Source of the DNA: Solirubrobacterales bacterium
Lineage (GTDB): Bacteria; Actinomycetota; Thermoleophilia; Solirubrobacterales; Solirubrobacteraceae
Length of the DNA stretch: 35,081 nt
Direction: 5' to 3'
Assembly (NCBI GenBank): GCA_013815355.1
Contig: JACDGG010000011.1
Location: 1-35,081 of the forward strand
The position numbers and the translations under genes were made by a program. The notes beneath the pieces were generated by a model. It worked only from the letters and a program-made list of their open reading frames with translations, was not told where the DNA came from and did no database searches. Below are positions 12,372-35,081 of the stretch, piece by piece (within the stretch, counting starts at the first letter, position 1; the number at the start of each line of letters is the position of its first letter).

Positions 12372-12401
12372 AGTATAGCAGAACTGATATAGACGGGTCA
12401 T
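12372..12401 (-). promoter_or_regulatory. Promoter of the HTH-nucleotidyltransferase pair
   Basis: On the minus strand, TATACT (12377-12372), preceded by TG one base upstream (extended -10), and ATGACC (12401-12396) are 18 bases apart, a plausible sigma70-type -10/-35. The -10 ends only seven bases before ATG 12364, so the transcript would be leaderless. The AT-rich patch stands out from its GC-rich surroundings. Confidence 0.5.
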
Positions 12402-13594
12402 GTGCCCGACTGTGCGGGGCCTTGAAGGGGCGAGTCGCGGTACTCGGGGTCGCCGGTGAGGGCGTCGCGGACGATCTCGGCGACGACGTCTGCGGTGTCG
12501 GCGCTCCAGTCAAACCGTGCGCCTTCTGGACGTTGCTCGGGCGGGTAGTTGTCGGGGTAGAGGTAGCGGTGCAGTTCGCGCAGGGCCTCAAGCGCGCTAC
12601 AAGCGGCGTTGGTGGGGGAGGGGTCATCGGGATCGAGCTGGTGTGCCTTGAGAGCGAGCGGGGCAGCGGCGGGCTCGGGGTCTTCGGTGTCCTCTGTGTC
12701 GTCTTGCTGGTCCTCGTCGCGGAGTAGGACGTTCTCCAGGCGGGCTGAGAGCCGGTCGATGAGCGCCGCGTGCTGGTGGATCTCGGCGATCGAGGCGCTG
12801 CCCTGCGACCAGGAGGTGAGGTAGGGGATGCTGTACTCGGCGGTCTCCAATCCAGCGCTGCGCGCCACGGTGAAGGCGACGGACTCAACGACGAGCTCCT
12901 CGGAGGCGTAGTTGAGCTGGGGGTCGCCGTCCTCGCGCTCGCGGTCGGTGAGGGCGTGCGCGAGCTCGTGGATTAGCGTGTGCAGCTGATCGTCGGGGCT
13001 GCGGGTGGCGTTCAGCGCGATGCGTCCTGTGGCGGGCTCATAGAAGCCGCCGCGCTGGAGTGGCAGGGTCTCGACGGCGACGAAACAGCCGAGGGTCTCG
13101 GCGAACACGCGAAGAGGCTGTAGTAGTGCTCGGTGCTCCTCGCCGCCGATCAGCTTGTGGGGAGGTTCAAGCGGGGCGGGTTTGGCCGGCGGCGGGAGCT
13201 CCTCAACTTGGGAGTGGTCAAAGACGGGGCCGAGCTTGAAGCGGGTCCTCGGACGCGTGTCGGGGTCGGCACCGGCCTTCTCCCATGCCTTCATCTCCTT
13301 CTTGGTGGGTGACATCGGCAGCCAGATGCGGATCGCGTGCTGGCCGCGGCGAACGCAGTAGCCGAGGTTCAGCCACGCTCGGAAACCCGCGACGCGGGTA
13401 GCGTCGGGGCATTGATGGGCAATGAGGAGCTGGTTTGTGAGGCTGTAACGCCGAAAGCGGCTCCGGGCGCTCAGCCAGCGTTGCCATCCGTCGCTGCTGC
13501 GCAGCTGCTCGGTAGCCTGCTCGGCGTAGGCGCGATCGGCTGCGCGCTTTGCGGCACGCTCGGAATCGCTCAGGGACTTGCGAGATCGGGGCAT
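12398..13594 (-). CDS. ArdC-like antirestriction / ssDNA-binding metallopeptidase-domain protein
   Basis: 398 residues from ATG 13594 (MPRSRKSLSD), preceded by GGAGCG. The N-terminal part has the ArdC ssDNA-binding pattern: LSARSRFRRYSLTNQLLIA, then VAGFRAWLNLGYCVRRGQ and AIRIWLPM. The central part has the zinc-peptidase motif HTLIHELAHALTDRE (HExxH) with a downstream EELVVESVAF segment. An acidic low-complexity linker and a short C-domain follow. ArdC-type proteins protect incoming plasmid DNA from restriction, which fits a conjugative element. A nested hairpin (13634-13702) lies in the leader 40 bases upstream of the start. Confidence 0.8.
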   Translation of the reverse strand: MPRSRKSLSDSERAAKRAADRAYAEQATEQLRSSDGWQRWLSARSRFRRYSLTNQLLIAHQCPDATRVAGFRAWLNLGYCVRRGQHAIRIWLPMSPTKKEMKAWEKAGADPDTRPRTRFKLGPVFDHSQVEELPPPAKPAPLEPPHKLIGGEEHRALLQPLRVFAETLGCFVAVETLPLQRGGFYEPATGRIALNATRSPDDQLHTLIHELAHALTDREREDGDPQLNYASEELVVESVAFTVARSAGLETAEYSIPYLTSWSQGSASIAEIHQHAALIDRLSARLENVLLRDEDQQDDTEDTEDPEPAAAPLALKAHQLDPDDPSPTNAACSALEALRELHRYLYPDNYPPEQRPEGARFDWSADTADVVAEIVRDALTGDPEYRDSPLQGPAQSGT

Positions 13595-13633
13595 GAGAAC
13601 GCTCCTTTTTCGGCGTGGGGCCAACCCCGCGTC

Positions 13634-20143: not shown

Positions 20144-21567
20144 GGTCGCGTCCCAGTTCCCGGGTGAATTGAGTCTGGGGTAGCTCCGCTTGGGGTGGAT
20201 GTTATGCGGCGATCACCTCCTCGGTGTTCGTCGTGGCTTGCGCGGCGTGACTGTCACGCAGTTGGCGACGCAGCCGTTCGATCTCGGCGACGGTCTTGGG
20301 GTTCATCTTCACGCCGCGCCAGCCGCGGCTTGAGAGCTCCAGCACCGCCCAGATGAGTGACAGGGCCGATGTCTCGCCGGGGAACCGGCCGATCACCTTG
20401 GTGCGCCTTCGGACCTCCACGAACGTGCGCTCGAGCAGGTTCGTGGTGCGGATCCTCTTGCGATGCTCGGAGGGGAACCGCAGGTGCGTGACGAGCGCCG
20501 GCAGGTCCGTTTCGATGACGGCCATCGCGGAGGGATATGCGGTCTTGTAGTCGGCGATGATGCCCTGCAGCTCGCGGCTGGCCTCTCCCGGGGAGCGGGC
20601 CTGATCGAATGCTTTCCACCAGCGTGCCTTGACCTCTTGGTGGTGGCGCTCGGGCAGCTTGCTGGTCACGTTCCGCAGGGCGTGCACGGTGCAGCGCTGC
20701 TCGAGCGCGTCGGGCCAGAGCTCCTTGGTTGCCTTCCAGATCCCAGGTGCCCCGTCGGCGATCACGAGTGCCGGGGCCCGCAGTCCCCTGGCGGTCATGT
20801 CACGGCCGAACGCGAGCCACGAGTCGTAGCTCTCGCGGCTGCCTAGGGCCAGGCCGAGCAGGACCTTTCGGCCCTCCAGGGTGACGCCCCAGCACACAAG
20901 GACGCCCTCCGCGGGCTGATCCTCGGGGCGCAGCTTCAGATAGATCGCGTCCAGGAAGCAGTAGACGATGTCGTGCTCTGAAAGGCTGCGCCGGCACCAC
21001 TGGCGGTATCTCTCGCGGGTGTCCTCGCAGATCCTTGAGACCGTCGACCTGGACGCGATCGGCTCCTCAAAGACCTCCTCCAACGCGGCCTCGACGTCCC
21101 GGGTGGACAGGCCCCGCAGGAAACTGCTGATCACCAACGACTCCAGCGCGTGCGTGCGCACGACACCCTTTCCGAGCACCCGGCTCTCAAAGCCGAGCTT
21201 GCCTGCGTCACGGACCCGAGGACGCTCCAAGTCCATCCGCCCGCTCGTCGTCTTGACCGTCTTCGGTTCATGGCCGTTGCGGTAGCTGACCGTCTCGGCG
21301 GTGCGCTCATAGCGGCGGCGGCCAAGGAACTCCGTGACCTCGTCCTCCAGCGCCTGCTGCAAGATCAGCCTCGCTCCCAGCCGGCCGACCACCTCCACCG
21401 GGTCGTGCTCCTCACCGACACCGGCCAGCACCTCATCCAGCTCGCGGCGAAACCTCTCGCTCGGGGCTACCTTCTCCATGCGGGCGTACCTCCATCTTCG
21501 ACTTGTTCAGGGTCAAAGCGGAGGCTACGCCCGCAACATCAAATCCCCCGGCTCATGAGACGCGACC
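20144..21567 (-). mobile_element. Complete IS256-family insertion sequence, 1424 bp
   Basis: The element is bounded by an 8-bp direct repeat (GGCAGGCG). Its imperfect terminal inverted repeats are about 50 bp. The left end reads GGTCGCGTCCCAGTTCCCGG and the right end (complement) reads GGTCGCGTCTCATGAGCCGG. Both continue with a GGATTTGA/GAATTGA segment and a GTAGC-TCCGCTT motif. One transposase gene fills it. It interrupts the DUF4326 gene. The perfect duplication and the precise restoration of the frame on removal indicate simple transposition with little later rearrangement. Confidence 0.9.
20202..21479 (-). CDS. IS256-family (mutator-type) transposase
   Basis: 425-residue DDE transposase. 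Catalytic residues visible are D177 (YCFLDAIYLKLR), D242 (LVIADGAPGIWKA) and E350 (RTTNLLERTFVEVRRR), with the family CxxH motif CTVHALRNV at about 263. The N-terminal FLGRRRYERTAET, then YRNGHEPKTVKTTSG, is typical. Length is normal (about 400-420) and no frameshift is seen, so it is probably active. Start ATG 21479 lies about 90 bases inside the right end. Confidence 0.95.
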   Translation of the reverse strand: MEKVAPSERFRRELDEVLAGVGEEHDPVEVVGRLGARLILQQALEDEVTEFLGRRRYERTAETVSYRNGHEPKTVKTTSGRMDLERPRVRDAGKLGFESRVLGKGVVRTHALESLVISSFLRGLSTRDVEAALEEVFEEPIASRSTVSRICEDTRERYRQWCRRSLSEHDIVYCFLDAIYLKLRPEDQPAEGVLVCWGVTLEGRKVLLGLALGSRESYDSWLAFGRDMTARGLRAPALVIADGAPGIWKATKELWPDALEQRCTVHALRNVTSKLPERHHQEVKARWWKAFDQARSPGEASRELQGIIADYKTAYPSAMAVIETDLPALVTHLRFPSEHRKRIRTTNLLERTFVEVRRRTKVIGRFPGETSALSLIWAVLELSSRGWRGVKMNPKTVAEIERLRRQLRDSHAAQATTNTEEVIAA

Positions 21568-23298: not shown

Positions 23299-24669
23299 CT
23301 ATGCGGCGAGAAGCTCGTCCTCCTCGACGCCGGCGTCGTCCTCGAGGCCTTCGAGGTCCTCAGCGCCAGCGGGCGAACCCGGGGCGCTGCTTTCGGCTTT
23401 GACGAGCTGCGCCTGGCGCTCGCCATGGGCCTTTGCCTCTGCCTTGATCGCGCGCTGCAGGTCCTTGTGAGAGGCCGGCAGCACGTCCTTGACGAGACGC
23501 TCGAACGCTTTGAGCGCGATCCCCTTGCGTGAGGCTGGCAGTGCTGAGCGCTGGCGCTTGCTGGCGGGCAGGACGAGGTCCTGCGCGTAGTGCTGTGCCG
23601 CGAAGACGACGAGCACACGGCCGTAGAGCTCTCCGGGGGTGCGGGCGCCCTCGACGAACTTCCACAGCCACTTCGCGGCGTCCTCTGGTTCGCCGTAGGT
23701 GACCTTCGTCTTGCCGGGGCCGCCGCTCTTTAGCCGCGGAGTCACGGTGCTGCGGTGCTCGTCAAAGACGAGGCGGATCCCGTTCGCGGCGATCGTCAGC
23801 GCCCGATGGTCGCTGCCTCCGAGATAGTTGGTGGTGTCCGGGCCGAGCACGCCCCAGGCGAAGAACCTCGCGACGTCCATGTCGCCGGGGTCGACCGTGG
23901 CGAGCTGGTTGAGCAGCGCGGAGCCGAGGTCGAGGTTGGTGGTGTGCGCGCGGCGGGTGAGCTCCCGCACAGACGCCCTGTGCTCCGCTTCGAGCTGCTG
24001 CTGCGGGGTCCGCTCGGCCTGGCCTTTCCCCCGCCGGCTCGCGCGGTCGGCCTCGGCGGCGTCCTTGGCGGCCTTCAGCTCGTCGCGGGTGCGAGCGATC
24101 GCCTGCTTGATGAGCTCGCGGTACAGCGCACGGTCGGTGATGACGGGGTTGCCGTGCTCGAACTCGATCAGGACACCGGCGGCGCGGGCTTGGTCTACTT
24201 CGATCTCGCCGAAGCGAACCGTCGGTGGCCCGTAGGCGTACCTGTCCAGCTGCTTGTGCAGCTCCTCGGCTTCCGTGTAGGCCGCGGTGGCCTTCTTACC
24301 GAGACGCAGCCCTTCGATTTCGCCGGCGTGAGCGGTGCTGAGGTAGGCACCGAACGTGCTGGTGGTGTTGCGCAGCGCGTGGCCGATCGCCCAGGCGGGG
24401 TCACGGACGAACTGCGACCCCGAGATCTCGCCCGCGGCGACCGCGGTGAGCGCACCCTCGCACAGCTCGCGTGAGACGCCTGCGATCTGCAGCATCATCT
24501 CGACGCTGCTGACGGGCAGCTCGCCGCTGTCAAGCAGACGCTGGGCGGTCTCGGGGAGCTCGAGGATCTTCGCCCGGGCGGTGACAAGTGCTCGGGTACA
24601 GCCGAGTGCTGATGCGGCGCCGTCGGGGGTGTAGCCCTCGCTGAACATGTAAGCGACCGCGCGCGCCTC
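23299..24669 (-). pseudogene. C-terminal part of a split plasmid ParB-like gene
   Basis: The frame begins inside a ParB domain: SEARAVAYMFSEGYTPDG is the end of the ParB nuclease-like domain. The ParB helix-turn-helix AASALGCTRALVTARAKILE, then LPETAQRLLDSGELPVSSV, follows, and then a long plasmid-type C-domain. Nothing upstream in frame encodes the missing N-terminal domain. Instead the sequence runs into the recombinase cassette at about 24670. The missing domain is found at 28930-29244 in the same orientation. An internal ATG (24648) could still give a 449-residue protein lacking the ParB/CTPase domain. It is acidic at the C-terminus (EDLEGLEDDAGVEEDELL). Confidence 0.82.
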
Positions 24670-24780
24670 GGAACTGGCGCAGGTGCGTTATTCGAACCGT
24701 GTGGTATGAGCTGGCGGAAGGAGGATGGCTGGTGGGCAGTGGGGACGAAATCGACCCGCGAGCAGCGTCGGTCTCACGGT

Positions 24781-24846
24781 CCGCGCCCAAACTGTGAAGC
24801 GGAGCCGAGCCCGTAGGGCGAGGGGAGCTGAGGGGTTTGGGCGCGG
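24781..24846. other. Long inverted repeat near the left end of the cassette
   Basis: CCGCGCCCAAAC (24781-24792) and its exact complement GTTTGGGCGCGG (24835-24846) enclose 42 bases with an inner AGCCC-GTA-GGGC stem. It lies downstream of the zinc-ribbon gene. It could be its terminator, a subterminal recombination signal or a structured RNA. The remainder of 24670-24913 has no gene. Confidence 0.55.
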
Positions 24847-24913
24847 GTGCGTCTTGTTGGCCCCCGGTCGGTCATCCTCAGATAGGACGCCTGTCGCTGA
24901 GCGCGACGGGTCC

Positions 24914-27241
24914 TTATTGGCTTCGTAGCGCTGGGTAGTCGCCCCAGGGTCGCCCTGCGATTTCTGCCCACTGGGTGGCGGTGCTGATGTGGACGCCGAG
25001 TAGGTCGGCGAGGATCGCGGCGGGGAGTTGGCCTGCGAGCTGCAGCAGTGCGGCGCGACGCGCGTCGTTGCAGTCGATGCCGATGCGTTTCATGCGGCGG
25101 CTGAGCGCGAGCGCGCCGATCGGGCGCGACGGAGCGTTGCCGGGGAACAGCCACAAGGGATGCCGGACGATCCCGGATGATGGCTTGGCGAGTTCGCTCA
25201 GTAGCTTGCGAACATCGCTGGCGATCGGTTTCGGGACGGTAAGCGCGGTGTCGCCGAGCTGGATCGCGACGGTCTGCTCCTCAAGGGTGATGTCGTCGGC
25301 TGTGAGTCGCGCGACACGGGTGACGGGTTGGGCGAACACAGCGATGAGGATCCCGGCGACTCGGTCGCGGACGGAGATCTGTTGGTCGTTGAGCAGCCGC
25401 TGGACGAGCTCGCCCAGGTCTTGGTCGATGATGGGCTGGGAAGGGCCGCCGCGCTCGCCCACTGGGAAGTCGAGCTTTGGCATGAGCTTCCGAGCGATCG
25501 CCCAGCGGGCGAAGGACCTGGCGATGTATCGGTCAGCGCGGGGACCCGCGAGCCACGCGTCGATATCGGATTGCTGGCAGGCGTCGAGCGGCCGGCCCCG
25601 GCCGGCGAGCCACTCGAGGAATGCACCAGCGCTTTGCAGCTCAACCTTGGCATGGCCCAGGACACCATCGTTGAGTGGCGCCCGCTGGCTCTTGCGTCGG
25701 TAGCGGCGCAGGATGACCCAGTGCGCGAACGTGCGGAGCGCCTGGTCATCGTCCTCGGCGCTGAAGAGCTCCTCGATCCACCGCTCTAGCCGGGCGAGTA
25801 CGGGGTCTCGAGCGGGTAGCGCGCCGGTGGCGACGAGGAGATGCTCGAGGCGCCGAACCGCGCCGTTTGAGGGATGACGATCGAGTGTCTCGTGAGTGCA
25901 GGGCAGCTCACCGCGGACGATCTGCCCCAGTAGCGGGACCGCCGGGCTGTTGCTCAGCCAGCGGATCATGTCCTTGGCTGAGCCGGCCGCGCTCAGCTCC
26001 TCGAATAGTCCGTTGAGCCCGAGCTCAACGCGACGTGGCTGGTCGCCGAGCAGCTCGATGAGGCGAGCGTGAAGGACGCAGCGTGCGCACAGATCGCGGC
26101 TATAGAGCGCCTCTTCTGCACCGCATCGCCCGCACACGTGATCGTGGGGGGCGCCGGCGCATTCGCGGCAGACTGGCTCCTCGAAGCCCGGATAGCGCAG
26201 CACCCGACGCGTCTGTCCGCACTGAGGGCACGAGCCTTTGGCTGAGAGCGCGCGGTGGTAGCAAGTACCGCAGACCGGGCCTTCGGGCCAATGGGCCGCT
26301 GGGCGTCGCGCGCGTCCGCAGTGCGAGCACGTCTGCGGTCTGACCGGCGCGCAAGCGCTGCAGAGCATTCGGCCGCGTCGCTCACCGCGGCACGGACGAA
26401 CCTGCCCGCAGCCCTCGCACGCGGCGGTTGGACCGGTCCAGCAGATCCCGCACAGGTCAGGATCGCCGTCGATGGCGAGGCGGACAATCACGCGCACCCG
26501 CCGGCAACCCCCGCAGGTCCCGACCGGCCGCTCGTAGCACCTCTCGCACCGTGGGTGACCCTGGCGGTCTCGGCCGATCGTTGGCTCCCCGCACTCGCCA
26601 CAGGGCTCCGACGCCGCGAGGGCACAGTGCGAGCACTGTGCCGGCGTGTCGCTAGCCGGGATCGCAGCCGTTTGCCCGCAACTCGCGCAGGTGGTGTGCG
26701 GGCGCTGCGCGCACTCAGAGCAAATCCGCTTGCGTGTTCGATAGCTGCGGTTCACGCCGCACACCGTGCAGCGGTGCACCGGGCGCACGTAGCTGCGGCC
26801 GTGGCAGGTCCCGCACAGCGGCAGACCATCAGCATCGCGGCTCGCGCGTCGCGCGAACTTCCCGCACCGTGAGCACGCCTCCGGTGGCCGGCGCCGGATC
26901 TGGCACGCGTTGCAGACCTGGCCTCCCGGCACGCGCCTGACGAGCGGCTTCGGTTCTCCGCAGTCCAGACAACGCGGCACCGCAAGGCCCTCGACACCCT
27001 CGGCGATCAGCCCGGTGATCAAGCGCGCGATCGGAGCCGGAGCGCCCGAGTCACCGTCCACGAGCGCCGTCGGATGCTCCACGAGATAGGCGGTGAACGC
27101 GTTTAGCCGCTCGGTTTTCTGCGCGACTCGCTCGATCGCGGCACGTGCGAGGACCGAGCTGACGTTCGGGTTCATGCGAGCGACCGTGTCGGCGGCCCGT
27201 GACAGCGCCTGCTCGGCGTTAGACGGGCGGATCTGCAGCAC
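24914..27241 (-). CDS. Ten-zinc-ribbon protein with degenerate tyrosine-recombinase-like C-terminus
   Basis: 775 residues from GTG 27241 with GGGAGA upstream. About residues 91-370 hold 20 CxxC knuckles arranged as ten zinc ribbons, each about 28 residues (examples: CLDCGEPKPLV...VCNAC, CSRCGKFARRA...LCGTC, CPQCGQTRRVL...VCREC). A helical linker follows. From about 600 to the end the protein looks like the catalytic half of a tyrosine recombinase: QPVTRVARLTADDI (Arg box), WLFPGNAPSRPIG, then DARRAALLQLAG and LGVHISTATQWAEIAG in place of LRHT...LGHSS..TT..Y. The His and Tyr of the active site appear to be missing (Val and Trp). It is probably a non-catalytic DNA-binding partner of the adjacent active recombinase, but this is inferred. 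Confidence 0.7.
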   Translation of the reverse strand: MLQIRPSNAEQALSRAADTVARMNPNVSSVLARAAIERVAQKTERLNAFTAYLVEHPTALVDGDSGAPAPIARLITGLIAEGVEGLAVPRCLDCGEPKPLVRRVPGGQVCNACQIRRRPPEACSRCGKFARRASRDADGLPLCGTCHGRSYVRPVHRCTVCGVNRSYRTRKRICSECAQRPHTTCASCGQTAAIPASDTPAQCSHCALAASEPCGECGEPTIGRDRQGHPRCERCYERPVGTCGGCRRVRVIVRLAIDGDPDLCGICWTGPTAACEGCGQVRPCRGERRGRMLCSACAPVRPQTCSHCGRARRPAAHWPEGPVCGTCYHRALSAKGSCPQCGQTRRVLRYPGFEEPVCRECAGAPHDHVCGRCGAEEALYSRDLCARCVLHARLIELLGDQPRRVELGLNGLFEELSAAGSAKDMIRWLSNSPAVPLLGQIVRGELPCTHETLDRHPSNGAVRRLEHLLVATGALPARDPVLARLERWIEELFSAEDDDQALRTFAHWVILRRYRRKSQRAPLNDGVLGHAKVELQSAGAFLEWLAGRGRPLDACQQSDIDAWLAGPRADRYIARSFARWAIARKLMPKLDFPVGERGGPSQPIIDQDLGELVQRLLNDQQISVRDRVAGILIAVFAQPVTRVARLTADDITLEEQTVAIQLGDTALTVPKPIASDVRKLLSELAKPSSGIVRHPLWLFPGNAPSRPIGALALSRRMKRIGIDCNDARRAALLQLAGQLPAAILADLLGVHISTATQWAEIAGRPWGDYPALRSQ

Positions 27242-27268
27242 CTATCGCGTCTCCCGGGTCGACGCCCC

Positions 27269-27622
27269 TCACGCCGCTGGTGGCTTGTCAGGATCCACGA
27301 TCCGGGCGCGCACGGGACGCAGCCCGTCGCGCACCTTCCGCGTCGCGCGCTCGTCCGGGGACCCAGCGGCCTTGCGTTGCTGGCGGCGCTCGAGGACCGG
27401 CTCGATCAGCTCGCCGACGCTGCAATCGAGCAGGTCACACAACGCCGCGAGGGTGTAGACATTGAGCCGCTCGGGCTGCTGAGTCACGAGCCGGTAGACC
27501 TGCTCGCGGGAGAGCTCGACGCCACGCTCGGCCAGCGGGGCGATCAGGTCCGTCGTCGAGAACATGCCGCGTGTCGCCATCACCTCCCGCAGGTGCCAGC
27601 GAACGCCCATCTTGCGAGTCAC
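27269..27622 (-). CDS. XRE-type small DNA-binding protein of the cassette
   Basis: 117 residues. GTG 27622 overlaps the recombinase stop (GTGA). The helix-turn-helix lies at residues 15-65: REVMATRGMFSTTDLIAPLA, then LSREQVYRLVTQQPERLNVY and TLAALCDLLDCSVGELIEP. This is the Cro/CI pattern of the YozG/small XRE type. The C-terminal third is basic and Pro-rich. By analogy with tnpC or excisionase-like partners it may control direction or expression of the element. A homologue occurs in the second cassette (33505-33831). Confidence 0.8.
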   Translation of the reverse strand: MTRKMGVRWHLREVMATRGMFSTTDLIAPLAERGVELSREQVYRLVTQQPERLNVYTLAALCDLLDCSVGELIEPVLERRQQRKAAGSPDERATRKVRDGLRPVRARIVDPDKPPAA

Positions 27623-28737
27623 GAAGCCACCCCGAACGCTCCTCCGAGCGCCCGCGCGAGCACCCGGTTCTTGTAGTCGTCAGACACGCCGGTGTAGATC
27701 GCCGTCGTCGCCGCATACGCATGGCCGACTTGGTCGGTCACGAACCGCTCGGGAAAGCCCGCCTCGATCAGATGCGTCACATACGAATGGCGCAGGCAAT
27801 GCAGGTCGAGCTCGACCGGTAGCCCCGCGCCCTCGCGATAGCTCGCAAACCGGGCGTTGACGTGCCTCGCCGACACGCGCCCGCGACGCTCGGTCATCCA
27901 CAACGCCGGATGGCGCCCGGGATCAAACCCGTCGCGGACCTCCCCGACATACTGACGCAAGGCCTCCACCGCCCAATCATGCACCGATAGCACCGTGCGG
28001 CGCTTCGGGGGACTACCCCGCGAGGCCTTCCCATAACGCACATGCAGCGCCCCGCAGGAGCCGAACTGAGGCGCCTTTGCGTTGCGATGCAGATCAGCGA
28101 TGTCGAGCATCACCGCCTCTCGGCGACGCAACCCCCACGCGTAGACGACCTTGAACATGGTCGCGTCCCTGAATGCCGCCAGCGTCCCCTTCCTGCCGTT
28201 TCCCGCGACACGGTCGACCTGGTCATCGGCGAAGTCGAAGAACCGCTGCAGCTCCTCGCGCGTCAACGCGCGGCGCCCCGGGCGGCCCTCGAACTCGCTC
28301 ACGTGTGCCGCCGTGTTCCACTCGTGGCAGATCAAAGCCGGCGCCTGCCCGAACCGCTCCTCACACTCCGCCACCCACCCGTACCGCGCATCGCACACGA
28401 AGTCACCGAACAACCCAAGGATGTGGTGGTAGCCGCGGATCGTCGAGTGCGCCCTCCCACCCGACCGCAGCGACGTCGTGAACGCCTCGACATCCTGCGC
28501 TCGCCAAGACCACGGGTATTCATTCGTGAACTCCGCGAACCGTCGAACCAGCCGATCCCGCCCAACGACCGTCACCTCGTTCAACATCCGGCTTCGCTGC
28601 TGAGCACCCCAGCCAGCGAGCATCCCGTCGAACATCGCCCGCGTCGGATCGAGCTCCGCGACGCCCTGAGCGAGCACCAGATGCGCCGCCCCGACCGCAT
28701 CCACGCGGCTACCCACAGGCCAAACCAAGATCCACAC
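27619..28737 (-). CDS. Tyrosine recombinase (integrase/transposase) of the first cassette
   Basis: 372 residues with a complete catalytic set: Arg in WGLRRREAVML (about 205), Lys in HVRYGKASRG (237), H313 and R316 in LHCLRHSYVTHL, H339 in DQVGHAYAATTAIY, and the nucleophile Y348. The SAM-like N-terminal DNA-binding domain spans about 55-145. The start is GTG 28737; no strong ribosome site was seen, and alternatives exist near MFDGMLAGW. Similarity to the second-copy protein begins near GVAELDPTRAMFDGMLAGW. It should catalyse strand exchange for this cassette, and it overlaps the XRE gene by four bases. Confidence 0.9.
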   Translation of the reverse strand: MWILVWPVGSRVDAVGAAHLVLAQGVAELDPTRAMFDGMLAGWGAQQRSRMLNEVTVVGRDRLVRRFAEFTNEYPWSWRAQDVEAFTTSLRSGGRAHSTIRGYHHILGLFGDFVCDARYGWVAECEERFGQAPALICHEWNTAAHVSEFEGRPGRRALTREELQRFFDFADDQVDRVAGNGRKGTLAAFRDATMFKVVYAWGLRRREAVMLDIADLHRNAKAPQFGSCGALHVRYGKASRGSPPKRRTVLSVHDWAVEALRQYVGEVRDGFDPGRHPALWMTERRGRVSARHVNARFASYREGAGLPVELDLHCLRHSYVTHLIEAGFPERFVTDQVGHAYAATTAIYTGVSDDYKNRVLARALGGAFGVAS

Positions 28738-28745
28738 TCACACCC

Positions 28746-28779
28746 ACAATGTTGCATACTCACCACAACAATGTTGCAT
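28746..28779. repeat. Direct repeat upstream of the first-cassette recombinase
   Basis: ACAATGTTGCAT occurs at 28746-28757 and again at 28768-28779, spaced 22 bases. It is AT-richer than its surroundings and lies just upstream of the recombinase start. It is likely an operator for the XRE protein or an accessory site for recombination. The rest of 28780-28929 has no gene. Confidence 0.5.
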
Positions 28780-28929
28780 CTGATCCAGAGGGCTCAGCCG
28801 AAAGCCCGCCATTGCAAGAGAATCCCGCGACCTAGCCGGAGCCCTTCGACGACACGACATCGGCCACAACAACGCGCGATCCCATCCGCCGAGCACGCCG
28901 AATGATGCATCCAAAGCCATAGTGCCCGG

Positions 28930-29244
28930 TTCAAGAGGTGAAAGTCCCTTGCGAAGGATATTCTCGGCAGCCGTATCCGCACTCGTGGCGTCCTGCTCAC
29001 GCGAAGACGCGGGGATCTCCTTGATACCCAGCTTGCGGCACGCCGCGAGCCGGTGATACCCGGCGACCAGGGTGAAACGCTCCCCATTGGGACGCAGGGT
29101 GATGGGGTTGATCAGGCCGCGAAGCGTGATCGAGCCAGCCAAGGCGTCGACGTGCGCTTGGTCGAGCTCGCGGACGTTCGCGTCATCGACGTCGATCAGG
29201 TCGATGTGCACGTGCTCGGGCGTGAGGATTGCGGTGGCGTTCAT
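28930..29244 (-). pseudogene. N-terminal part of the split plasmid ParB-like gene
   Basis: From ATG 29244 (GGAAGG site upstream), 105 codons encode a ParB nuclease-like domain: IDVDDANVRELDQAHVDALA, then SITLRGLINPITLRPNGE, the CTP-motif region VAGYHRLAACRKLGIKEIP, and AENILRKGLSPLE. The last Glu codon is 28930-28932. After it the frame runs into cassette sequence (PGTMALDASF) and ends at 28738. Joined to the frame at 24669, the product would be ENILRKGLSPLE+EARAVAYM, a normal ParB sequence of about 561 residues. The separated halves would give a free domain and an N-terminally truncated protein. Confidence 0.85.
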
Positions 29245-29267
29245 GAGGAGCCTTCCTTTTGATCGGT

Positions 29268-29358
29268 GGCCCCGCCCGGTGCGGGACCGCTCCCCATCCC
29301 CCCTGCACGCCGTTAGGCGTGCAACCCTTGGGGGAGGGGCGGTCTTGCACCGGGGGCC
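29268..29358 (-). other. Large nested hairpin in the leader of the parB-like gene
   Basis: GGCCCC (29268) pairs with GGGGCC (ending 29358). CGGTGC pairs with GCACCG, and GACCGC plus C-runs pair with G-runs plus GCGGTC. The apex is the perfect TGCACGCC-GTTA-GGCGTGCA (29304-29323). It starts 24 bases upstream of ATG 29244. Nothing else is evident between 29359 and 29472. Confidence 0.6.
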
Positions 29359-29472
29359 CTGCTCCCGCCTTAGAGCTGCCAGAGAGGGCGGCTACTGGTC
29401 AGTCCTGGTCTCGCTCGGCGGAGGGGAGGGCGTGAACGTCGAGGAGCTCGCCGCGCGGCTGCGAGCGTCCGG

Positions 29473-29697
29473 TCAGCAGCCGGGGTGTTGCTGGGCGCGG
29501 ATCGCGTGCTCGATCCGCTCGACACGCTCGCCGATCTCGATCGGGAGGTGCTCGCCGACGGCGAGGGAGAGCAGCCACAGGCGCTCGTCGCGCAGCGCCC
29601 GGCGGGTGGCGCGCGGGCGCTCATACCACGCTAGGTCCCCGAGTAGCCGCAGGCATGGAGCGTCGGCGTCGCGTCGGTGTAGAGACAGGACGCTCAT
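29473..29697 (-). CDS. Small hypothetical protein, 74 residues
   Basis: ATG 29697 overlaps the stop of the upstream gene (ATGA). The product is a helical protein with CLRLLGDLAWYERPRATRRA, then LRDERLWLLSLAVGEHLPIE and IGERVERIEHAIRAQQ. The family is not recognised. It is translationally coupled to the 186-residue protein, suggesting joint function. Confidence 0.6.
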   Translation of the reverse strand: MSVLSLHRRDADAPCLRLLGDLAWYERPRATRRALRDERLWLLSLAVGEHLPIEIGERVERIEHAIRAQQHPGC

Positions 29698-30254
29698 GGC
29701 GTTCTTGTGGGCCAGCGCAAGATCGCGCGGGGAGGGAGGGGGAAGGACACGGTGAGGTGGGTGAGCCCTTCGGCGCCGGGTGGGACGCCGAGCGCGATGT
29801 GCGCCGTCGGTGGCTGATCGTTCTGCCAGGACCACTCGTAGCGGATCGGCAGCCAGCGGTTCTCGTGCTCGAGCAGCAGCTCCAGGGCGCTGCCGGCGTT
29901 CACGGGGCGACCGTCGAGGAAATGCCGGGGGCCGCCGGGACTCTTGCCGAGGATCAGCTGCTGGTGAGGCTCATAGCCCAACATTCCCTCGAAGTGCTCG
30001 GCGTTCCAATCCTGCTGACAGCGGTCATACACGCCTTCGCGCTGAAGGAACCATGTCTCACGGGTCGCCTCGTCGCGGCTCTCGGGTCGCGGCGGCACGG
30101 GGTGCTCGTGCTCTGAGCGCCAGCCGCAGCTGCAACTCGCTCTGTAGGCGAGCGGGTCGGGGTCCGTTGCGCTGCGGCCCGATCCGCCTGTCCAATGGCC
30201 GTCGGGCCACTTTTCATCGGCGTAACCCTCGTGTGGCTCATAACCCCAGCCCAT
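29694..30254 (-). CDS. Hypothetical accessory protein, 186 residues
   Basis: Begins MGWGYEPHEGYADEKWPDGH, then WTGGSGRSATDPDPLAYRAS and CSCGWRSEHEHPVPPRPE. The Cys pair plus downstream His could be a small metal site. A helical centre (ATRETWFLQREGVYDRCQQD) follows. The second half has alternating strands (RWLPIRYEWSWQNDQPPTAH, then IALGVPPGAEGLTHLTVSFP). The N-terminus looks like a short conserved cassette of actinobacterial mobile elements, but I cannot name the family. It overlaps the next gene by four bases. Confidence 0.6.
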   Translation of the reverse strand: MGWGYEPHEGYADEKWPDGHWTGGSGRSATDPDPLAYRASCSCGWRSEHEHPVPPRPESRDEATRETWFLQREGVYDRCQQDWNAEHFEGMLGYEPHQQLILGKSPGGPRHFLDGRPVNAGSALELLLEHENRWLPIRYEWSWQNDQPPTAHIALGVPPGAEGLTHLTVSFPLPPRAILRWPTRTP

Positions 30255-30331
30255 CAGCTGATTCTCGCGCGAGCGTCGGATAGGGGAGCAGGGACTGCGG
30301 ACATTCGGATCTCCGGTCCGCTCTCCCGCAC

Positions 30332-31198
30332 TCAGCTGCGGGGTCCGCTCGCCTCATCCGCGCGGCGGTAGCCCAGGCGTTGAGAGATGCGGTCGGCCGT
30401 TGCGATTAGGTGCGGGCCGAGCGCGTCGACGAGGCCCTCGAGGGAGATCATCGAGCTGTGCGCTGAGAGGCTGAGCGCGGCAACCGTCTCGTGCGCGTGA
30501 TCACGCACGGGCGCCGCGATTGCGTAGAGCTCCGCGAGGAGCTCCTGGTCGTTGACCGCAAATGCTTCCTCGCGTACCTGCTCGAGCTCTACGGTCAGGG
30601 CGCTCTTGCTCGTGATCGTATTCGGGGCCTTCTTGGCGAGCGTCATCTGCGCGATCCGCTCTCGCTGCTCGCTCTCAGGCAGAAACGCGAGCAGGATCTT
30701 CCCCATTGCTGTGCAGTGCGCGGGCAGGCGCGAACCGGGGTTCGGGTCCAACTCGATCTTGCTCTGCTCACGTCGGAAGCTTTTGGCGCGGTCGACGTAG
30801 AGGATCTCGGTGCCGTCGAGGACCGCGAGGCTCACGGTGTAGCTGGTGCGCTCGCGCAGCTCCTTGAGATAGGGGTGGGCGTGCTCGCGCAACCCCATCG
30901 AGTTCAGCGCCGACATCCCAAGGTCGGTCACGCGCAGACCGAGGCGATACTTGCGCTGCGCATCCTGCTCCAAATAGCCCAGCGCGACGAGCGTGGTGAC
31001 ATAGCGGTGCGTGGTCGAGCGGCTCATCCCGAGCTCATCGGCGATGTCGGAGATCCCGAGCACTGGCTGCGCCGGCGTGAAACAGCCAAGGATCGCGAGC
31101 CCACGCGCGAGGGACTGGGAGTAGCGCGGCTCGCGCAGGCTCGGGACCGACCATGCCGGGTCTTGCGCCGCCTCTCGACTCGGCTTCGTCTTGGGCAT
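30332..31198 (-). CDS. IclR-family transcriptional regulator
   Basis: 288 residues from ATG 31198 (MPKTKPSREA); the open frame upstream is not needed. The N-terminal winged helix reads YSQSLARGLAILGCFTPAQP, then LGISDIADELGMSRSTTHRY and LVALGYLEQDAQRKYRLGLR. The GAF-like IclR effector domain follows: LDGTEILYVDRAK, RLPAHCTAMGKILLAFL, then INDQ-like AVNDQELLAELYAIAAPVRD. A complete regulator for an unidentified small aromatic or organic acid. No catabolic operon is nearby, so the target genes are elsewhere. It may be cargo of the element. Confidence 0.92.
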   Translation of the reverse strand: MPKTKPSREAAQDPAWSVPSLREPRYSQSLARGLAILGCFTPAQPVLGISDIADELGMSRSTTHRYVTTLVALGYLEQDAQRKYRLGLRVTDLGMSALNSMGLREHAHPYLKELRERTSYTVSLAVLDGTEILYVDRAKSFRREQSKIELDPNPGSRLPAHCTAMGKILLAFLPESEQRERIAQMTLAKKAPNTITSKSALTVELEQVREEAFAVNDQELLAELYAIAAPVRDHAHETVAALSLSAHSSMISLEGLVDALGPHLIATADRISQRLGYRRADEASGPRS

Positions 31199-31363
31199 TA
31201 CCGGGTCAACCTTATCTGCAGCGTCGAGAGGCCCACAGTGCGAGCGCCCGACCCGTCGTGGACGACAGCGACCTCGCTGGAGGTGACGGGCCGGGACGCT
31301 CACGCCCAGCGCGCCCCTACTGGCGAGGTGCGGATATCTCTTTACGCGGAATAGCTCATCGGG

Positions 31364-31588
31364 CTAGAGAAGGCGGCGTAGCTGGCTGGGGTCTAGGCCT
31401 GCGTCGTTGAGGATGCCGGAGAGGGTGCCGCGCTTGAGCTCGCGGTGCAGCGGCACGGTGAGGGAGCTTGGGCGGGCGGGGTGCTTCATTCGGACGTGGC
31501 TGCCGCGCTGGCGTGCGAGCTGCCAGCCGGTTCGTTCGAGCGCTTTGACGAGCTGGCGGCCTGAGAGGACCGGGAGTCCCTCGCTCAC
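31364..31588 (-). CDS. hicA: HicA-family mRNA interferase toxin
   Basis: 74 residues. SGRQLVKALERTGWQLARQR followed by the catalytic GSHVRMKHP (His) and LTVPLHRELKRGTLSGILND is the HicA double-stranded RNA-binding-like fold. GTG 31588 overlaps the hicB stop (GTGA). Order hicB-hicA; the toxin appears intact. Confidence 0.9.
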   Translation of the reverse strand: MSEGLPVLSGRQLVKALERTGWQLARQRGSHVRMKHPARPSSLTVPLHRELKRGTLSGILNDAGLDPSQLRRLL

Positions 31589-31809
31589 GCGGGGACCGGG
31601 AACCGTCGGCGGATCACGCCGGTGCTGAGAGGGCGTCCTTCTTCGCGGAGGCCCTCGACGTAGAGCTCGAGGGCCTCTTGAGCGTTGGTGGCGGCCTGCT
31701 CCAGCGTGTCGCCCTGGGTGTGCAAGCCCGGCAGGTCGGGCGCGTAGACGTGGTAGCCACCCTCATGCTGGGGGGCGAAGATGAGCTCGATCTCCTGCGG
31801 CTGAGCCAT
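31585..31809 (-). CDS. hicB: HicB-family antitoxin
   Basis: 74 residues with the HicB partial RNase H-like fold: ELIFAPQHEGGYHVYAPDLP, then GLHTQGDTLEQAATNAQEAL and ELYVEGLREEGRPLS. There is no C-terminal DNA-binding domain, so any repressor activity would need another protein. Start ATG 31809. It pairs with HicA. Confidence 0.9.
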   Translation of the reverse strand: MAQPQEIELIFAPQHEGGYHVYAPDLPGLHTQGDTLEQAATNAQEALELYVEGLREEGRPLSTGVIRRRFPVPA

Positions 31810-31837
31810 GTCTTCAGGATAGGGAACGCGGTCTCCT

Positions 31838-33508
31838 CTAGGCGGCGTGGGAGGGGTTTGAGGTTCTAGCGCGCAGCGCGGCGTACTCGGCGTATGTGGC
31901 GCCGGCGGCGCGGGCCCACTGTGCGGCGCGTGCTTGGTGGACGCCGAGGCGCTCGGCGAGTATCGGCGCCGGCAAACGGGCAGCGAGCGCGAGCAATGCT
32001 CCCTGGCGTCCTGAACGGCCGGTGATGCCGTAGCGCGCCAGTCGCCGCAGCAGCTGCTCGGGGCTGATGTGAGTCCCGGCGTTGCGTCCGGGGAACAGCC
32101 ACTGGCTTGTGCCCGCGCCGCGGTGTAGCTCGAGCGCGATACGTGCCAGCGGGTCGGGAAGCGCTACTACACCCCGGGCGAGCGTGATCCCGACGGATCG
32201 GTCGGTTTCGTGCAGGTCGCTGATGGTTAGCCTGGCGGTGCGGGTGAGGGGTTGGGCGTAGAGCAGCAGCAGGCTCCCTGCGAGCCGGTCGCGGGCGTCG
32301 ATCTCCTCGCCGTGCAGCAGCGTGCGCAAGATCTCAAAGCGCTCGAGCTCACCCAGGGGCCTAACGTGTTCGCCGACCTCATGCCAGGCGACGTGCAGCG
32401 TGGCGGTGCTGCTGGTGCGGGCGAGCCATGCCAGGAACAGTCGCACTCGTCTGCGTGCCCCGGCGCCTTCGCTTATCCACTCATCGGTGAGGTCTTGGCG
32501 CAGATCGCTCAGCTTCAGCTCTTGAGCGTGAAGCCAACACGTGAGGCCGATCGCCTCGCTGAGCAGCGAGCGCGCATACTTCGCTGGCGCGCTGCCGGTC
32601 TTGCCTGCGCGGACGCTCAGCGCGAGCCGGGGAGCGAGATGCCAGTTGGCGTAGGCACGCACGAGCGCTCGGTCAGGACCGTCCTGTAGGGCGCTGGTGG
32701 CGTCCTGTGCCCAGCGCGAGAACGCAGCGGTGATCTCGTCACGCTCAGGCAGGGCGTGCTCGTGGACCAGCGCGGCGCGAACAAACGCGATAGCCCCGGA
32801 ACCGTGCGTGGTCTCGATCGCCCCGTCCAGCGCCTCGTGGGTGAGCGCGACCCTTCCAGTCAAGAGATCCTCCAGGAGAAGGCGAGTCGGGGTTTGCAGC
32901 CAGCGCAGCATCGAGTCAGCGTTCTTGGCGGCAGCGAGCGCATCGAGATACGGCGCGAGCGCCGCGACCGCGACTGGGTCTGCGCCGTCGCGAAGGCGTT
33001 GGATGCGTAGCGCGAGCCGACACCGCGAGCAACGCCCAGTGACCAGCGCCGCCAGGGCGTGACAGTCGCTGCAGTCTCCATCGCCGCCGCCTTTCTCGCG
33101 ATCACATGCCTTGCAGATCGGGCCTGTTGAGAGCCGTCGATAGACGAGGCGTTTCTCTGCGCAGCAGGCGCACTTCACCAGCGGCCTGGCCACGCAGCTG
33201 AGGCACAACGGCCTTGAGCTACTCGCATAGCGGCACGGCTTGACGCGACCGCAGCTGCTGCAGGATCGTTCAGGAGGCCGGTAGCAGCAGCGTCCGAGCG
33301 CTGGCTGCCCGCCGCTCGCTTTGCGAATCAGCCGGCTGGTTTTGCCGCAGACCCCGCAACGCCCCGTTGGCTTAGGAGCGCAGCTTCTGCACATATCCGG
33401 CTGCCCGTCGCGGGCGCGGCGCTCGATCGCCAAGACGCGCCCGCAGACGCCGCAGGGGCGCCTGGGCTGATCGGCACGGCCGCGAGCCGGCCGGCGAGCC
33501 TTGCTCAC
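31838..33508 (-). CDS. Five-zinc-ribbon protein with degenerate recombinase-like C-terminus (second cassette)
   Basis: 556 residues; GTG 33508 overlaps the XRE stop (GTGA). Residues about 20-165 carry five zinc ribbons (CGVCGRVLAIE...CRSC, CGVCGKTSRL..., CSSCGRVKPC...CLSC, CACCAEKRLV...CKAC, CSDCHALAA...CSRC); the second ribbon has GRCC in place of a clean CxxC. The C-terminal part mirrors the first cassette: QPLTRTARLTISDLHETDRS, then WLFPGRNAGTHISPEQLLRR, GRQGALLALAARLPAPILAE and RLGVHQARAAQWARAAG. It likewise has no visible catalytic His or Tyr. It has half as many ribbons as the homologue at 24914-27241. Confidence 0.7.
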   Translation of the reverse strand: MSKARRPARGRADQPRRPCGVCGRVLAIERRARDGQPDMCRSCAPKPTGRCGVCGKTSRLIRKASGGQPALGRCCYRPPERSCSSCGRVKPCRYASSSRPLCLSCVARPLVKCACCAEKRLVYRRLSTGPICKACDREKGGGDGDCSDCHALAALVTGRCSRCRLALRIQRLRDGADPVAVAALAPYLDALAAAKNADSMLRWLQTPTRLLLEDLLTGRVALTHEALDGAIETTHGSGAIAFVRAALVHEHALPERDEITAAFSRWAQDATSALQDGPDRALVRAYANWHLAPRLALSVRAGKTGSAPAKYARSLLSEAIGLTCWLHAQELKLSDLRQDLTDEWISEGAGARRRVRLFLAWLARTSSTATLHVAWHEVGEHVRPLGELERFEILRTLLHGEEIDARDRLAGSLLLLYAQPLTRTARLTISDLHETDRSVGITLARGVVALPDPLARIALELHRGAGTSQWLFPGRNAGTHISPEQLLRRLARYGITGRSGRQGALLALAARLPAPILAERLGVHQARAAQWARAAGATYAEYAALRARTSNPSHAA

Positions 33509-33831
33509 GAGCGCCCGCCCGGGCGGCGAAGACGCACCTGCTTGGGTTCAAGCGCCTTGTCGATCGTGGTGCTGCTCGCCGGGTCCATCGCGATCGGCGC
33601 CGCGAGCTCGCTGCGGCGCACGAGCTCGCCAGGCTCGCAGGCGAGGATCTCACAGAGCACCATCAGCACCCGGAGATTCAGGCGCTCCGGGCGGCCGGTG
33701 ACCAGCCGCCAGACCTGCGAGTCCGACAGGCGTATGCCGTGCTCGGCGAGCCTGGGTGCGAGCTCGTTCGCCTTGAACATGCCGCGCTCTGCCATCAGCA
33801 CCCGCAGGCGCCACTCGTAGTCCACGCTCAT
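33505..33831 (-). CDS. XRE-type small DNA-binding protein (second cassette)
   Basis: 108 residues, helix-turn-helix in VLMAERGMFKANELAPRLAE, then IRLSDSQVWRLVTGRPERLN and LRVLMVLCEILACEPGELV. It is a homologue of 27269-27622 over the first about 75 residues, with a different basic tail. ATG 33831 overlaps the recombinase stop (ATGA). Confidence 0.8.
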   Translation of the reverse strand: MSVDYEWRLRVLMAERGMFKANELAPRLAEHGIRLSDSQVWRLVTGRPERLNLRVLMVLCEILACEPGELVRRSELAAPIAMDPASSTTIDKALEPKQVRLRRPGGRS

Positions 33832-34966
33832 CGCACGGCCGCGAGCTCTGCGAGCTGCTCGTCGATCGCGGCCCTGACCAGACGGTCCTTGAAGTCATCG
33901 CCGACCGATAGGTAGATCGCTGTTGTAGCGGCGTGGCTGTGGCCGACCTGATCCTGGATGAACTGCGCGGCCCACCCCTGCTCAGCCAGATGCGTCACAT
34001 AGCTGTGACGCAAACAGTGCGGGGTCAGCTGCTGCGGAAGGCCTGCTTCGTCGCGGATCTCAGCGAAGCGCTCGTTGATGTAGCCGACCGCGATCCGGGT
34101 GCCGCGCTCGGTCAAGAACACCGCCGGATGCTCTGGGCAGCCGAAGCTCGGACGGATCTCGCTCACGTACTGCTCGATAACCTCGACCGCCCAATCGAAC
34201 ACTGTCAGCACGGTGCGACGCTGCGGTCCACCGCCACGCTTCGCCTTGCCGTAGCGAACGTGCACCTGGCCATAGGCGCCGAACTCGGGCAGCTTGCCCG
34301 CCGGACGGAAGTCACAGATGTCGAGCATCGCGACCTCCGCGCGACGCAGACCCCACGCGAACTTGACCTTGAACAACGCCTGGTCACGCCACGCCTGCAA
34401 AGACCCCTTGCGCCCCCGCGCCCGGCACGCCGCGATGCGCGCCTCGCACGCACCGAAGAACGCCTCCAGCTCGTCCACCGTCAACGGGCGCCGGCGCGGG
34501 TCGCCCTCGAAGTCGTCCAGATGCGCAACGAGGTTGCGCTCACCGAACAGCTGGCCAGGGCCGCGGCCGAACTCACGCTCACAGATCACCGACCACGGAT
34601 AGCGATGGTCACACGCATACTCGGAGAACCCCTTCAGCCGCTGCTGGTAGGTGCGAAGCGTCGAGCGCGCCAGTCGCTGCGGCGCGCCAGCAGATCCTCG
34701 AAATACTCATCGGCGTGCGAGGCGCGCCACTCCCACGGCCAACAACCCGTGTGCTCAACGAACGCTCGCACACCCGTCTCGTTCGCGCGGATCGACTTGG
34801 GCTTGCAATAGCGCGCCGTCTGCTGGCTACGCCAGCCCGCCAGCATCGCGTCGAACAGCGCCCGCTCGAGATGCAACGGACGGACACCCACCCCAAAGAC
34901 CCGCGCCAGCGCACCGTCGACGTCCTGCGTCGAGTAGACACCATGCGGGCTCAACAAGCTCTGCAT
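33828..34966 (-). pseudogene. Tyrosine recombinase of the second cassette, frameshifted
   Basis: The N-terminal part (ATG 34966 to the stop at 34634) ends ASHADEYFEDLLARRSDW and then goes out of frame. From about 34680, in the neighbouring frame, the protein continues ARSTLRTYQQRLKGFSEYAC, then DHRYPWSVICEREFG. The catalytic domain to 33828 follows. In that part R (WGLRRAEVAML), K (HVRYGKAKRG), H and R (PHCLRHSYVTH), H (DQVGHSHAATTAIY) and the nucleophilic Y are all present. The total of 1139 bases is one short of 380 codons (copy 1: 372 residues), consistent with a single one-base deletion. The unshifted C-terminal part could be expressed from an internal start at 34589. Confidence 0.8.
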
Positions 34967-35055: not shown

Positions 35056-35081
35056 CGCCGCAACACTACCCCGCCCTGTCA

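Follow-up and report, generated by a model that had tools for sequence, protein, structure and literature searches.

A zinc-ribbon gene trio of a Solirubrobacterales contig as a probable recombination module of small mobile elements

Results

We present here an analysis of a gene trio that occurs twice in a 35,081-nucleotide stretch of DNA from a Solirubrobacterales bacterium (Solirubrobacteraceae; GenBank assembly GCA_013815355.1, contig JACDGG010000011.1, positions 1 to 35,081), which is referred to as the window. Each trio encodes Y, an active-type tyrosine recombinase (YR); X, a Cro/C1-type helix-turn-helix (HTH) protein; and T, a long third protein with zinc ribbons. Both copies lie on the minus strand and have the same gene order, as the original prediction, made from the window sequence, had described.

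In copy 1, Y lies at 27619..28737 (PF00589, E 1e-19; motif GH...TTAIY), X at 27269..27622 (PF13443, E 5.6e-16), and T at 24914..27241. T has a helical N-terminus, an array of 20 CxxC knuckles (residues 91-388, 26078..26971, delimited by knuckle positions), and a predicted catalytic-type YR-fold domain without the catalytic His and Tyr (residues 598-775, 24917..25450). In copy 2, X lies at 33505..33831 (PF13443, E 3.8e-14) and T, with 9 CxxC knuckles, at 31838..33508. The copy 2 recombinase had been taken for a single gene at 33828-34966. It instead consists of a 5′ piece (34634..34966) and a 3′ piece (33828..34589; PF00589, E 4.4e-21) in different frames, so either the gene is broken or the assembly is in error at that place. 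Adjacent genes share 4 bases at three of the four junctions, in keeping with the overlaps noted before; the copy 1 X-to-T junction is a 27-base gap. The two copies are homologous throughout, with identities of 31% for T (176/573 aligned positions; E 9e-58, pairwise), 52% for Y (125/240), and 42% for X (43/103). A Pfam scan of both T proteins gave nothing above the cutoff. Residues R204, H313, R316, H339, and Y348 of the window Y are invariant across 18 aligned sequences (alignment A4) and, with the PF00589 match, provide the catalytic set, the Lys aside, that is expected of a tyrosine-recombinase mobile element.

Copy 1 is, as read from the sequence, an insertion that cut a ParB-like gene in two. 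The element spans 4,260 bp (24670..28929, minus strand), and both of its ends (attL and attR) were located, the left one to about one base. The 5′ part of the interrupted gene lies at 28930..29244 (PF02195 ParB_N, E 3e-9) and the 3′ part, which has no Pfam match of its own, at 23299..24669, both on the minus strand. The reading frame runs on at both flanks, with ...LSPLE at the left junction and EARAV at the right; in genome G008, an undivided homologue has LSPLEEAHAV at the same place. The rejoined protein matches two uninterrupted genes of that genome at 64 to 65%. The left end (28903..28929, minus strand) carries a subterminal TGCATCA that is common to the left ends of the Rhodococcus and clade S elements described below, and the right end, GGTTCGAATAACGCACCTGCGCCAGTTCC (24670..24698, minus strand), resembles the clade S right end by eye. 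Only 244 bp separate T from the right end, leaving no room for a cargo gene of the usual size.

The C-terminal domain of T had been proposed to be recombinase-like, and structure prediction bears this out: an AlphaFold2 model (mean pLDDT, 77; pTM, 0.40; C-terminal half mostly 75 to 95, with a dip at residues 590-610) has a predicted tyrosine-recombinase fold. All 50 Foldseek matches listed for the model are tyrosine recombinases (best E, 1.4e-4). With VIA-align, model residues 598-775 aligned with XerH over 165 residues (Z, 13.2; rmsd, 4.2), and topoisomerases IB ranked lower in the same list. At the profile level, T matched XerD weakly (E 0.0035 and 0.0067), and its ribbon stretches matched GATA-type fingers weakly (E 0.0041 and 0.0044). 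The predicted replacement of LGH...Y by LGV...W extends across the family: the Tyr position is Trp in all 33 aligned T members, window copies included, and each of the 33 has I, V, or L in place of the second His. The box-II Arg is retained in 32, the remaining member having a gap. A domain that lacks the catalytic residues on a recombinase fold should not cleave DNA in the usual way. GATA-type fingers bind DNA on their own, and this likeness, together with the company of an inactive recombinase domain, suggests that the ribbon array has a role with DNA.

The C-terminal part of T matched 244 of 72,556 plasmid records, most frequently from Streptomyces (113) and Rhodococcus (57). Among whole genomes, the window's own included, T matches turned up in 3 of 61 relatives; at the level of the class the figure was 4 of 199 genomes and at that of the phylum 31 of 396, several of the matches being fragments; the best 80 of 151 loci from the species-genome scan were kept. 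T had no match in the phage record collection, and profile P0002 had none in viral contigs, where a narrower alignment matched one locus.

The gene order Y-X-T recurs across loci. Among 79 distinct long third genes, counted without the duplicate loci from the first fetches (L001-L009 and L023-L057), X was found upstream of 72 and Y upstream of 66. This count is mechanical, requires 1.8 kb of upstream sequence, and errs low (L014 and L019 were scored as lacking X but have it). Three of its misses (L016, L076, and L109) sit downstream of another trio, and the Y gene of a trio is split by an inserted element at L016 (left junction) and at L076/L079 (both junctions). The third gene, as proposed, travels with the recombinase. 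Neither of the outcomes that the original prediction had set against itself, a third gene mostly found without the recombinase or a structure prediction with no recombinase fold, occurred in this sample, whose loci were chosen by T homology; how often Y and X occur alone lies outside it. Two neighboring arrangements were seen. At L177:2522-5512 there is a second type of YR-HTH-third-protein trio, with a 523-amino-acid third protein carrying four N-terminal knuckles, and at L017:1501-6387 a second recombinase-HTH pair stands directly behind the first element, its third gene lying beyond the fetched stretch.

On four Rhodococcus plasmids, units of 3.36 kb that hold the trio alone are 98.9 to 99.5% identical and have the same ends behind different left flanks. 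These elements use a short palindrome-like site; their left-end site, CCGATAWCC-variable-GTTATGTTAACTA, is also present in L021 and L022, where no trio is annotated within 5 kb. As far as the insertion point, L021, a plasmid without the trio, matches L014 at 100% identity; from there on its sequence resembles the right flanks of L018 and L019, and it therefore reads as an unoccupied site.

The largest clade of these elements, called clade S, has a left end that reads (A/G)ACCCTCGGGAATTGCATCAG and a right end that reads AGTTCCAATACCCGAC..CACCATTA, with small variation. The contigs of L062 and L082 start and stop at these ends, and that of L058 does so to within two bases, as expected for repeated units. 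Element length is 4,605 to 5,839 bp in the 27 entries with both ends, among which L076-L079 are contigs of one genome. Eight genes between T and the right end were scanned: two encode carbon-nitrogen hydrolases, two have no Pfam match, and the others encode a GNAT acetyltransferase, a phosphoribosyltransferase, a short-chain dehydrogenase, and a caspase-like protein. If joined, the clade S ends would form a dyad (CAATACCCGA ... TCGGGAATTG). At L086 and L087, the element follows the right end of a preceding one in a tandem arrangement, and the tandem copy at L087 displays joined ends directly. A 12-mer search for inverted repeats in the other clades found nothing consistent. Insertion left no visible target duplication. 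Two targets have uninterrupted homologues, and a third is known as a site without the trio; defined ends, and sites with and without the element, are thus present, as expected of a tyrosine-recombinase mobile element. In clade S, TGCATCAGA occurs close to the left end, and the reverse of it, TCTGATGCA, close to where the recombinase begins (e.g., L058:3-165); the two are a possible pair of binding sites for the HTH protein or the recombinase.

Clade S targets are, with few exceptions, other YR genes. The search for left ends required a flank of 60 nucleotides and yielded 47 distinct ones; in one case only N precedes the end, leaving 46 that are readable. The search pattern was built from clade S loci, and diverged ends such as those of L114, L121, and L133, which have YR frames upstream, are uncounted. 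A YR catalytic motif (GH...T..Y type) lies 1.3 to 3.7 codons before 43 of the 46 ends. Measured from where the Tyr codon starts, the distance is 2.33 codons in 33 of the 43 (one codon between), 1.33 in five, and 3.67 in five; the five targets at 1.33 have Tyr-Tyr, the first of which may be the catalytic one. The three ends outside a YR motif are L086 and L087, each behind another element, and L159, in an ISL3 transposase gene. Of the 34 host frames upstream that are 90 amino acids or longer, 30 match PF00589. The host recombinases are diverse (mean column identity, 12%) and include trio-type recombinases (L016 and L079), which means that the elements nest. At L016:1849-10145, on a Pseudonocardia plasmid, a trio is nested in the recombinase gene of another trio.

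Past the right end, where it was seen, the C-terminal tail of the same recombinase resumes, as in HVRLRLQRDAI and AVYPEEVINGHRAF. The left end meanwhile gives the host gene a new short C-terminal tail of 9 to 45 residues and a stop, in every left end translated. The rejoined L080 target matches 13 Streptomyces plasmid records at 85.0 to 89.4% along its entire length, and in 12 of these the match is a single piece. On a Rhodococcus plasmid, a 71% homologue of this target is interrupted near the same codon by a clade S left end, behind which a recombinase, an HTH protein, and an 806-amino-acid protein are annotated. A search for intact targets at E 1e-40 in 149 genomes found none, which shows little; the plasmid search did find some. 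The L080 gene is also a close homologue of the recombinase gene of the second trio type at L177.

The recombinase of clade S itself typically encodes STAIYTHV, so its own gene would resemble a target. At the residue four before the Tyr (Y-4), Ser (TCN) was found in 56 of 58 recombinases of the clade S group and Thr in all 19 recombinases of other trios, and the Y-4 codon starts with A in 36 of 37 targets. The target count omits L072 and L092, and the own-gene count omits recombinases that lack a recognizable motif or precede a left end. Groups were set by hand from the tree, with L161, at the base of clade S, placed with the others and L013, absent from the tree, placed with clade S. A change from Thr to Ser at the most conserved target position may spare the clade's own gene, exceptions notwithstanding.

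A difference of 10 versus 5 ribbons between the window copies had been described, with 20 against about 10 knuckles; strict counting gives 20 for copy 1 and 9 for copy 2, in agreement with it. Knuckles were counted in stop-to-stop frames, and a few may be added or missed. Exactly 16 were found in 52 of 98 distinct T frames and 15 in 6. In the clade S group (76 frames), 52 have 16, ten have 13 to 15, and 14, which are short frames, have fewer than 13; T proteins of the Rhodococcus-type branch have 6 to 7. The tree includes window copy 1 and excludes 4 of the 98 frames, which are fragments. Tabulated across clades, ribbon number is mostly a clade mark, which speaks against a simple number code for targets: clade S mostly has one knuckle number and very diverse YR targets. 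A code for target length, also considered, is unsupported, the number being mostly fixed within clades.

Directly behind copy 2 lies a HicB-HicA toxin-antitoxin pair that is probably its cargo: a HicB-like antitoxin gene (31585..31809, minus strand; PF15919, E 8.7e-11) and a HicA toxin gene (31364..31588, minus strand; PF07927, E 3.8e-21). The probable right end of copy 2, placed by resemblance only, is at 31318..31340 on the minus strand. On the left, copy 2 extends to the end of the window at 35081, its left end being outside the view. Elsewhere, the window encodes a TraG/VirD4-type coupling protein, a second ParB, an ArdC-like anti-restriction protein with a peptidase-like domain (12398-13624), and a Mutator-family transposase (20202-21479), and so looks like part of a plasmid or conjugative element.

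Discussion

We consider the trio to be the recombination module of small, often cargo-carrying mobile elements and put the probability of this explanation, including the roles of the proteins and the clade-specific targets, at about 0.8. It draws on the ends, insertions, target positions, and cargo variety read from the sequences and on the modeled fold of T; from these we infer a division of labor among Y, X, and T, a circular intermediate, and a host recombinase that stays active. Y would cut and join, recombining the two ends into a circle and inserting the circle at a short core site. X would control expression or direction, as a regulator or direction factor, and T would join the same synaptic complex as an inactive partner that holds flanking DNA. 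Clade S inserts just past the catalytic-Tyr codon in other YR genes, in most cases with one further codon in between. Such an insertion would leave the host recombinase intact through its catalytic Tyr, with an added tail that may keep the enzyme alive, and would place the trio downstream of the host recombinase promoter.

A more elaborate version holds that the zinc-ribbon, dead-recombinase subunit reads the target DNA and that one clade homes into the active-site motif of its own enzyme class, parasitizing mobile elements, nesting in trios, keeping the host usable by means of the tail, riding its promoter, and mostly sparing its own gene by Thr-to-Ser recoding. Taken as a whole, this is tentative and rather doubtful.

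Several points weigh against the mobile-element explanation or parts of it. Neither movement nor a circle was observed, the case being built by sequence comparison. The right flanks of three Rhodococcus copies are similar, so these insertions occurred at one kind of site, not in unrelated DNA. For T, the last 35 residues of the model, which bear the Trp, have a pLDDT of about 65 or less, in a model with a pTM of 0.40. PF00589 reached E 0.01 in just 4 of 37 T proteins. An hhalign comparison of the T and Y profiles was insignificant (probability, 0.35%; E 0.17); kinship of T to this Y is unsupported by it, and the fold comparison was used instead.

Further such points concern clade S. Two of the 43 targets are decayed (L065 and L092), the motif of L092 being poor, and 29 of the 76 loci of the clade S group, with no recognized left end (broken, at a contig end, or diverged), are uncounted. 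The clade S relative L159, kept as a real non-YR target, lies in an ISL3 transposase gene, hinting that a DNA sequence rather than a gene family is read. Its left end is near 4410 on the minus strand, at SYA, with TAT GCC preceding the end. A third-codon bias was looked for in the supplied tail, and none was found; at five loci (L069, L071, L072, L075, and L175) the tail is read in another frame. These two results give no support for selection that keeps the host recombinase working. As for self-avoidance, target L101 carries TCG at Y-4, and clade S-group recombinases L089 and L133 keep Thr (ACG); the position of L133 itself, behind a YR-like frame, argues against a strict rule. Ser at Y-4 may be a mere clade mark.

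Three other explanations were weighed. The trio might move with T outside the recombination complex, as a regulator or nucleic-acid binder co-expressed with a self-sufficient recombinase. The GATA-type finger matches of the ribbon stretches, weak as they are, and the lack of a match between the T and Y profiles would suit such a T. We nevertheless judge it unlikely: a recombinase fold is predicted to be kept over the catalytic-type domain, T stands in regular gene order with Y and X, and in the GInt elements all four gin genes, the YR-like ginC included, are described as essential (PMC5385486).

The supply of a short new tail and a stop could also mark clade S not as a transposon but as a device for exchanging the tails of recombinase genes or for generating diversity in them. 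This is very improbable, as the original C-terminal tail persists beyond the right end wherever the right flank is known, the genes ahead of the right end vary, other clades use sites outside recombinase genes, and tandem copies exist (L086 and L087). Equally little credence attaches to a stationary system for resolving plasmid dimers or for inversion. Its frequency on plasmids (244 records) and the dyad-like site of the Rhodococcus case would fit, but the same Rhodococcus unit is found behind different left flanks, and genes and sites without the element are known, so that occupied and unoccupied sites both speak against it.

If the trio is a mobile-element module, clade S offers a natural system in which a site-specific recombination element would recognize one short protein-coding motif in genes that have diverged widely, which opens target choice, the function of inactive recombinase subunits, and self-avoidance to direct testing. 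The module may also explain the rows of "site-specific integrase - HTH - hypothetical protein" annotated on several of the actinobacterial plasmids included here and recombinase genes that appear to be cut short right after the catalytic Tyr.

Homing introns and inteins occupy those active-site codons that are most conserved in a gene family; the mover here differs in being a site-specific recombination element that hits the gene family of its own enzyme. The comparison with other systems draws on PMC10214605, PMC8138268, PMC3414803, and PMC5385486. Tn554 and recombinase-in-trio (RIT) elements, named in the original prediction as the nearest parallels, were good leads, but SE and GInt elements are closer in design because they have a non-catalytic or non-canonical YR-fold partner.

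As described in those texts, SE elements share with the trio a tyrosine recombinase operon that includes Tfp, a YR-fold protein without catalytic residues, as well as few target locations and defined, imperfect inverted ends. They differ in having two active recombinases and Srap and in occurring mainly in Gammaproteobacteria; the trio has one active YR, an HTH protein, and a zinc-array T, and zinc is unmentioned in the main text of the SE paper. Instead of the SE set IntA-Tfp-IntB-Srap, we found Y-X-T with one active-type YR per trio. SE elements are described as moving a 6-bp central region with strand bias, and the junctions read here are compatible with a short central region. GInt elements (ginABCD; PMC5385486) likewise have a recombinase operon, a non-canonical YR-like GinC, a small helical protein, and cargo. 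In contrast to the trio, they have three YR-like proteins, cargo of 2.5 to at least 70 kb, imperfect flanking repeats of 10 to 11 nucleotides, and, in pseudomonads, an ABC transporter gene as target (PMC5385486). GinC is described in the available texts in two ways, as missing the first Arg (PMC5385486) or, in a second paper, as lacking the catalytic Tyr. In place of ginABC and ginD, the trio has one YR gene, one HTH gene, and one zinc-array YR-like gene.

The Tn554-related actinobacterial transposons (PMC3414803) resemble the trio in combining a short YR with an abnormally long YR-like protein, in having a small third protein in some cases, and in being found in many cases on actinobacterial plasmids. 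Their long partner, by the available description, has a potential catalytic motif and no recognized N-terminal domain, and some of these elements have TnpC. The small protein of the trio is a Cro/C1-type HTH protein. The Tn554 family has two catalytic YRs (TnpA and TnpB); T lacks the Tyr and the second His. Of the plasmids tabulated in PMC3414803, Arthrobacter FB24 plasmid 1 gave no match to the T profile and pREL1 gave one distant match, a 543-amino-acid protein with zinc-ribbon knuckles, so part of the Tn554-related set may be distant kin. That protein (L180:706-2337) combines a zinc-ribbon array with a YR N-terminal-like domain; the family probably extends beyond the loci surveyed here. RIT elements, as described, also have three adjacent, overlapping genes, all of them for YRs; in the archetype the catalytic Tyr is present in all three recombinases, and here the catalytic set is present in one of three proteins.

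In the literature available, with thin coverage of subscription journals, we found neither a description of such a protein with a zinc-ribbon array nor one of elements that target YR genes at the catalytic-Tyr codon. An inactive or non-canonical YR-fold partner is already known, from the descriptions of SE Tfp and GInt GinC. What is new, within the limits of this search, is the zinc array and the choice of recombinase genes as target.

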